DNA of 36,029 bases from Candidatus Staskawiczbacteria bacterium (GTDB taxonomy: Bacteria > Patescibacteriota > Minisyncoccia > Minisyncoccales > Staskawiczbacteraceae). Below are positions 20,518-21,583 of the stretch, in pieces. Below the pieces are notes generated by a model. That model was not told the DNA's origin, made no database searches, and saw only the letters and a program-made list of their open reading frames with translations. The position numbers and the translations under genes are program-made. The DNA lies in contig JACPYG010000017.1 in assembly GCA_016196125.1 (NCBI GenBank), forward strand, positions 1 through 36,029, in the 5' to 3' direction. Numbering within the stretch: position 1 is the stretch's first letter; every line of letters begins with the position of its first letter.

Positions 20518-20560
20518 ATGACTATTCTATCTTATTTTCATTAAAAATTAAAGATACTTA

Positions 20561-20600
20561 AAAAAAAGACCCCCTGCAACAATTATTGTTGAGGGGGTTT
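20561..20600 (-). terminator. Rho-independent terminator of the lectin-like cassette
   Basis: ACCCCCT...AGGGGGT with inner CAACAAT/ATTGTTG; U-run on the minus strand. Confidence 0.8.
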
Positions 20601-20607
20601 AATTTTG

Positions 20608-20622
20608 CCCGCCTTCGGCGGG
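20608..20622. repeat. Short GC hairpin CCCGCC-TTC-GGCGGG
   Basis: Perfect 6-bp arms between the CDS and the terminator. Confidence 0.7.
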
Positions 20623-20626
20623 ACAC

Positions 20627-20666
20627 CTTTGCCAACTCCGTCCCTAACGGGACTCCGTTGGCAAAG
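20627..20666. repeat. Hairpin/cruciform over the stop codon of the lectin-like gene
   Basis: 10-bp arms CTTTGCCAAC/GTTGGCAAAG, inner GTCCC/GGGAC, 4-nt loop; stop codon at 20644-20646 overlaps stem/loop. Confidence 0.85.
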
Positions 20667-21360
20667 AAACTACGGAACGGGCACGCAGACCGCCATCGCG
20701 ACGGCCGGAGCGGCCCCAACCAACCCCGAACTCGCCATCGCACCAATGGGCGTTAGGCACATCACCGCCGGAGTCACGAGAGCCCGAACAAAGCGTTGCG
20801 CTTCTGATGTCCAGGTGATTCCCAGTTTCGTCAAAGTACTTTAGCTCGTAGAGCATGCGCTCCATGAGCGTGGTACCATTGACTTGCCGGGTTGCCAGCT
20901 GATCTGCAGAGAGGTTTTTGTTTTCCTCGTCGGCTTCCTGGCGGTCGCGAACCCAAATGGCATAAGTGCCGTTGGCTGGGTCGCGGTCGTTGGTGGCGAC
21001 ATCCTTGTCCAAATCATCCTTGTAGCGCCAGCATTTGAACTGCTTTTGGCAGGCGTCATAGACCCTGTTGAGGGTCAAGCCATTGGCGACAACAATCAGG
21101 CGATCAAAACCGGGCTGATGGTCGGGAACAGCGACATCGCCGATGGTGAGACCGAAGCGCTTCTTGTAGAAGCTGTCCCACTCTTGGAGTTGCCGCTGAG
21201 CCGAAATGTCTGGTCCGTGGACACAAGGACAGAGACCTGCGAGGAACTTTTGGAGTCCTCGGGGGTTCTCAATCCAGTTCTGCATGACTTCGTCTGAAAT
21301 CTCCGGCATGTTCTGCGCCACGGTGGCAATGAACTCTGCGGTCTGTTTGTGATACAACAT
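20644..21360 (-). CDS. Putative DGR-type variable protein with C-type-lectin-like C-terminus
   Basis: 238 aa; C-terminus TLCSGSRDSGGDVPNAHWCDGEFGVGWGRSGRRDGGLRARSVVS; nt 20689-20745 have 3 adenines in 57 on the coding strand; RBS-like GAAAGG upstream. Confidence 0.6.
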   Translation of the reverse strand: MLYHKQTAEFIATVAQNMPEISDEVMQNWIENPRGLQKFLAGLCPCVHGPDISAQRQLQEWDSFYKKRFGLTIGDVAVPDHQPGFDRLIVVANGLTLNRVYDACQKQFKCWRYKDDLDKDVATNDRDPANGTYAIWVRDRQEADEENKNLSADQLATRQVNGTTLMERMLYELKYFDETGNHLDIRSATLCSGSRDSGGDVPNAHWCDGEFGVGWGRSGRRDGGLRARSVVSLPTESR

Positions 21361-21413
21361 GGTGCTTTTTCCTTTCTTTAGGGTTTCACCATTCTTGCCT
21401 GACTTCCGAAGTG

Positions 21414-21465
21414 GCAGTCATAGCCATAAATCCTCTAAAATTAAAGGTCTTATGGCTATGACTGC
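21414..21465. repeat. 16-bp perfect inverted repeat in the 5' leader of the lectin-like gene
   Basis: GCAGTCATAGCCATAA / TTATGGCTATGACTGC. Confidence 0.85.
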
Positions 21466-21516
21466 TGTCTTTTAAGTAATTTTATGATGTAAAAGGGCTG
21501 TTCTTTACTATATTTG

Positions 21517-21545
21517 ATTGTACACCTATTAAGTGATGTTGTCAA
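21517..21545 (-). promoter_or_regulatory. Sigma70-like promoter of the lectin-like cassette
   Basis: Minus strand TTGACA-N17-TACAAT. Confidence 0.7.
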
Positions 21546-21569
21546 GAGTTTACATAGATTCGGTATAAA
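21539..21569 (+). promoter_or_regulatory. Possible divergent smpB promoter
   Basis: TTGTCA-N19-TATAAA; -10 flanked by AGTTTACA/TGTAAACT. Confidence 0.35.
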
Positions 21570-21583
21570 TGTAAACTAAATCC

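Follow-up and report, generated by a model that had tools for sequence, protein, structure and literature searches.

Diversity-generating retroelements (DGRs) whose targets are remote or served in trans have been described in Trichodesmium (PMC8867640) and in Thiohalocapsa PB-PSB1 (PMC10907252), and in the latter, long reads revealed intact variants of loci that had seemed incomplete. The survey of PMC8144416 could not detect remote targets of this kind. The locus considered here lies in a window of 36,029 nucleotides (the whole stretch of DNA that was analysed), which is contig C6 of a 646,940-base assembly in 17 contigs that is 95% complete. A sequence-only reading had proposed that one gene in the window encodes a DGR variable protein without a local reverse transcriptase (RT). 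This gene, hereafter the window gene, sits between a UMP-kinase-like gene and smpB, both named by reading their sequence and both conserved in relatives. Coordinates of the features are collected in Table 1.

Table 1. Features of the window gene and its surroundings (positions on the window).
Feature	Position	Strand	Details
Inverted repeat directly 3' of the variable repeat, overlapping the stop codon	20627..20666	-	Outer stem of 10 bp, inner stem of 5 bp, loop GTTA
DGR target (variable protein) gene	20644..21360	-	238 aa, GC 56%
Variable repeat, 40 codons GSRDSGG...LRARSVVS	20665..20784	-	Adenine-derived changes relative to templates of relatives
Possible initiation-of-mutagenic-homing (IMH) site: GC-rich CTGCGTGCCCGTTCCG at the variable repeat's 3' end	20673..20688	-	Corresponding stretch unchanged between template and variable repeat in cassettes of relatives
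Conserved 5' leader	21358..21499	-	Boxes, long hairpin, hairpin enclosing the Shine-Dalgarno sequence
Hairpin enclosing the Shine-Dalgarno sequence, TGGTG...CACCATG	21358-21391	-	Part of the conserved 5' leader
Core leader hairpin and 3' extension, modelled as R1	21386..21465	-	Arms 21450-21465 and 21414-21429
Leader box AAATTACTT	21474-21482	-	Part of the conserved 5' leader
Leader box AGCCCTTTTACA	21488-21499	-	Part of the conserved 5' leader
Promoter-like TTGACA-17-TACAAT	21517..21545	-	11/12 matches

Homologues of the window gene in DGR cassettes

Homologues were sought in 58 genomes (the window's own and those of relatives), and matches were obtained in 15, every one of them from the same Patescibacteria family. 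The window protein shared about 43-53% identity with DGR targets of same-family genomes that are proven by a template repeat (TR). Several relatives carried an extra, tail-only match approximately 200-300 nt downstream of the homologue, and self-comparison identified these matches as template repeats, ~112-122 nt long and differing from the corresponding variable repeat (VR) almost only at template adenines. For instance, TR and VR of G018:C12 were separated by 18 A>G, three A>T and three A>C changes and by no other change. An RT followed within a few hundred bases of the template repeat. The proteins of these relatives are therefore DGR targets, and homologues of the window gene were found as the targets in five intact cassettes of variable protein, template repeat and RT (VP-TR-RT; G019:C17, G001:C37, G012:C41, G018:C12 and G018:C2). 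A separate scan of genome contigs returned four homologues, one of them on a Ca. Staskawiczbacteria contig.

Pfam and PHROGs scans of the window protein gave no significant match, and a sequence search of solved structures gave no match. A Foldseek search of PDB and of viral models with the confident AlphaFold2 model of the protein (pLDDT 89) gave no significant match; C-type lectins and Mtd of BPP-1 appeared only at E>0.5, and a C-type-lectin-like fold of the variable domain was not confirmed. An N-terminal module (NLPEVPEDIMQNWIENPKALQKLL...) is common to targets with otherwise unrelated tails (P0001 residues 1-45; L035, L036, L042, L123 and L136), a pattern of sharing that suggests modular reshuffling.

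Adenine-specific change in the variable repeat

The window protein ends in ...WCDGEFGVGWGRSGRRDGGLRARSVVSLPTESR, and the paucity of adenine in the Gly/Arg/Trp/Asp-rich stretch, described in the sequence-only reading, was confirmed and proved to be rare genome-wide. The coding strand of 20689-20745 holds three adenines in 57 nt, and the minimum elsewhere in the gene is six per 57 nt. Across the ORFs of at least 150 aa in the same genome, three or fewer adenines were counted in 59 of 165,751 codon-phased 57-nt segments, 11 of which fall in the window gene; no other ORF has as many. By itself a low adenine count is weak evidence because the whole gene is GC-rich (at 56% it ranks second among the ORFs of a genome with 35% GC), and it was rejected on that ground as sole proof of DGR origin. 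The evidence for such an origin lies instead in the comparison with homologues. Target genes in L030-L042 are likewise GC-rich throughout (mostly 0.46-0.58), and the RTs of the same cassettes, in L030-L036, are AT-rich (0.23-0.38); adenine mutation does not explain this contrast, because it touches the tail only.

The window VR was aligned without gaps to the template repeats of five relatives. Relative to the G019 template, the window VR was changed at 25 of 33 adenines and at 17 of the 87 remaining positions (p=1.8e-8); taken singly, G, C and T had rates of 12-26%. Over all five templates the p values for adenine-specific change ranged from 1.8e-8 to 1.3e-4, and at codon positions 1-2 from 6.7e-10 to 2.8e-5. 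The negative control was the stretch of residues 54-192 in these gene pairs, where the changed fraction was 0.36-0.49 for adenines and 0.39-0.45 for the other bases (p 0.24-0.75). The adenine-specific signal is confined to the tail of the window gene. Differences thus gather at template adenines within the 3' VR, the templates being those of relatives and not the gene's own. A relative's template with Asn codons reads GSRNTNGNVPSANWNDGKFKVNWYNPDNHNYHLRSRSEVS, in agreement with the earlier suggestion that template Asn codons had become Gly, Arg, Asp, Ser and Cys codons. With cassettes in relatives, adenine-specific change in the tail and a null control upstream, the proposal of a DGR variable protein was upheld, and it is nearly certain that the window gene is a DGR target by descent.

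The inverted repeat at 20627-20666, together with a neighbouring stem, has a predicted fold of -39.7 kcal/mol (z about -4 to -6). The window gene thus carries a hairpin/cruciform just downstream of the VR, a feature not found in all homologues: the hairpin is similar in G019, weaker in G018 and missing from G001 and G012.

Reverse transcriptase, template repeat and genomic setting

No DGR RT was found in all 646,940 assembled bases using Pfam RVT_1, tblastn with the RTs of relatives, or a lineage-specific RT profile, for which the best hit with filters off had E=0.081. A cognate template was likewise not found in the genome by blastn or by an ungapped adenine-tolerant scan, and a 66-base adenine-degenerate pattern with three mismatches allowed matched the window gene alone. 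The absence of RT and near-repeat first remarked for the window therefore extends to the whole assembly, in which, at 95% completeness, neither component of a complete DGR was detected; relatives have both. Two further genes of this genome, a second homologue at C17:46741-47436 and a target-type gene with the leader at C12:20999-21511, also have neither RT nor template, so that three target-type genes are orphaned and not one. Compared with templates of its type, the C12 gene displayed weak adenine-specificity (p 0.03-0.24), and the confident claim is thus limited to the window gene. The second orphan target (G000:C17, L002) is flanked by two 236-bp direct repeats (45643-45878 and 48096-48331) with 13 mismatches.

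The UMP-kinase-like gene and smpB adjoin in eight relatives. The gap between them, at 20518-21583 of the window, holds different GC-rich accessory genes across relatives; it is nearly empty in G002 (178 bp) and in G018 is occupied by another target-like gene, also GC-rich, with no template found. Judging from these few genomes, target genes seem to come and go at this gap without an RT.

Origin and present state of the window gene

Our preferred explanation, which we consider probable, is that the window gene is a DGR target now stranded, diversification having been ancestral and the RT and template having since been lost or left behind. An ancestral RT would have copied the template repeat, changing template adenines, and the mutated cDNA would have taken the place of the gene's final ~40 codons, so that the present tail would be the frozen product of past diversification. 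Stranding could have come about through loss of the cassette or through a lone target moving into the UMP-kinase/smpB gap. The gene still reads as an intact ORF, and expression from its own promoter and structured leader presumably continues. This reading is bounded by an assembly of 17 contigs at 95% completeness and by a comparison restricted to genomes from other genera.

DGR loci assemble badly, and an RT and template acting in trans from the unassembled ~5%, from other cells of the population or from an unbinned element could still be diversifying the target. Such arrangements exist among close relatives. In G022, a template next to an RT on C25 corresponds to a target on C24, and over ~100 nt target and template differ only at adenines, bar two sites; template and RT also lie on a contig other than that of the target in G014 (C2 from C6) and G023 (C22 from C4), while G030 (C9 from C8) is a possible case in which both sites are near contig starts and the contigs could adjoin. 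Furthermore, the window ORF is intact, its VR is still close to the templates of relatives at non-adenine positions, and trans activity with hidden intact variants is documented elsewhere (PMC10907252). Continued service in trans is nevertheless a doubtful, if possible, explanation, as RT and template are both absent from 95% of the genome and both would need to be missing, the orphaned target-type genes number three, and four other family genomes (G013, G020, G021 and G028) have the leader and no RVT_1 match. On balance, the gene is probably stranded rather than remotely served.

It is unlikely that the lone target was acquired already diversified from another lineage and never met an RT here, a sub-case of stranding that overlaps our preferred explanation. 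The GC content of 56% vs 35% for the genome, the insertion between housekeeping genes and the presence at this site of an unrelated target-type gene in G018 are consistent with import, but targets of RT-bearing relatives are equally GC-rich beside AT-rich RTs, so that composition need not mean recent import, and the leader is a family trait. That no DGR was ever involved, the tail being an ordinary Gly/Arg/Trp-rich and GC-rich end of a GC-rich gene in which few adenines are expected, is scarcely credible, being contradicted already by adenine-specific change in the tail with none upstream and by the templates and RTs adjacent to the orthologous tails of relatives.

A structured 5' leader shared among target genes

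The window gene is preceded by a conserved leader with a predicted fold of -44.4 kcal/mol (z -7.1), and promoter-like sequences were present upstream of many relatives' genes too. In the leader stem 96.6% of cells were paired and slid controls failed; eight pairs and 33 cells were changed on both sides, values as high being reached in 1/500 and 0/500 shuffles, respectively. The G-U pairs in the stem favour an RNA rather than a DNA palindrome. Of the 35 family genomes, 23 contained matches to the R1 covariance model. The 23 genomes from elsewhere in the order yielded two weak matches in unrelated contexts, and one clean exact leader match was found in a different family of the class, before a target-type gene. 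An Rfam search of the leader returned no family above cut-off. The leader pattern was not found in viral contigs, and there is thus no sign of phage carriage.

In other genomes the same leader precedes several unrelated target types, mostly DGR targets. For at least 14 leader sites, the gene that follows has an adenine-mutated template within its own genome, and most of the remainder precede homologues of those target types. The leader is not exclusive to DGR targets, about eight sites preceding other or broken genes. A second leader occurs in the window's own genome (G000:C12:20914-20993). At L174 (G007:C5:33728-33806), leader and target-type N-terminal module continue in frame into leucyl-tRNA synthetase-like sequence, identified as such by eye, within one 1075-codon ORF.

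Bases flanking the Shine-Dalgarno sequence are paired in many leader copies (TGGCG/CGCCA; TGGTG/CACCA in the window), and for this reason regulation of translation is the most likely reading of leader function. A role in the movement of target genes between loci, with the palindromic leader as the site, is the alternative. We tentatively suggest that the unrelated DGR targets of this family may form one regulon, in which a promoter-proximal structured leader RNA would time variable-protein production and persist after retroelement loss. The shared leader appears to be new; a limited search of the open-access literature found no description of how variable proteins are regulated in CPR bacteria.

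Implications and comparison with known systems

Testing the tail of a gene against the templates of relatives, with a control inside the same gene, allows a DGR target to be recognised when no RT is present, and RT-keyed surveys therefore undercount DGR targets. For orphan targets in genomes that are reduced and probably host-dependent, one may ask whether binding to something is what preserves a frozen variant. The shared leader offers a handle on the regulation of variable proteins and is the part that deserves follow-up.

Like the remote targets of Trichodesmium and Thiohalocapsa, the window gene is a target without a local RT; unlike remote or trans targets, it has no cognate template in its own genome. 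It resembles the targets of Patescibacteria VP-TR-RT cassettes in its homologous protein, the same variable-repeat register and the Asn-rich template pattern, but the five cassettes of relatives have template and RT within about 1.5 kb, whereas the assembly yielded neither for the window gene. Finally, the window gene shares with mtd of Bordetella phage BPP-1 (PMC3240598) an inverted repeat directly after the VR, the BPP-1 type consisting of an 8-bp stem with a GRNA loop and that of the window gene of an interrupted 10+5 bp stem with a GTTA loop.
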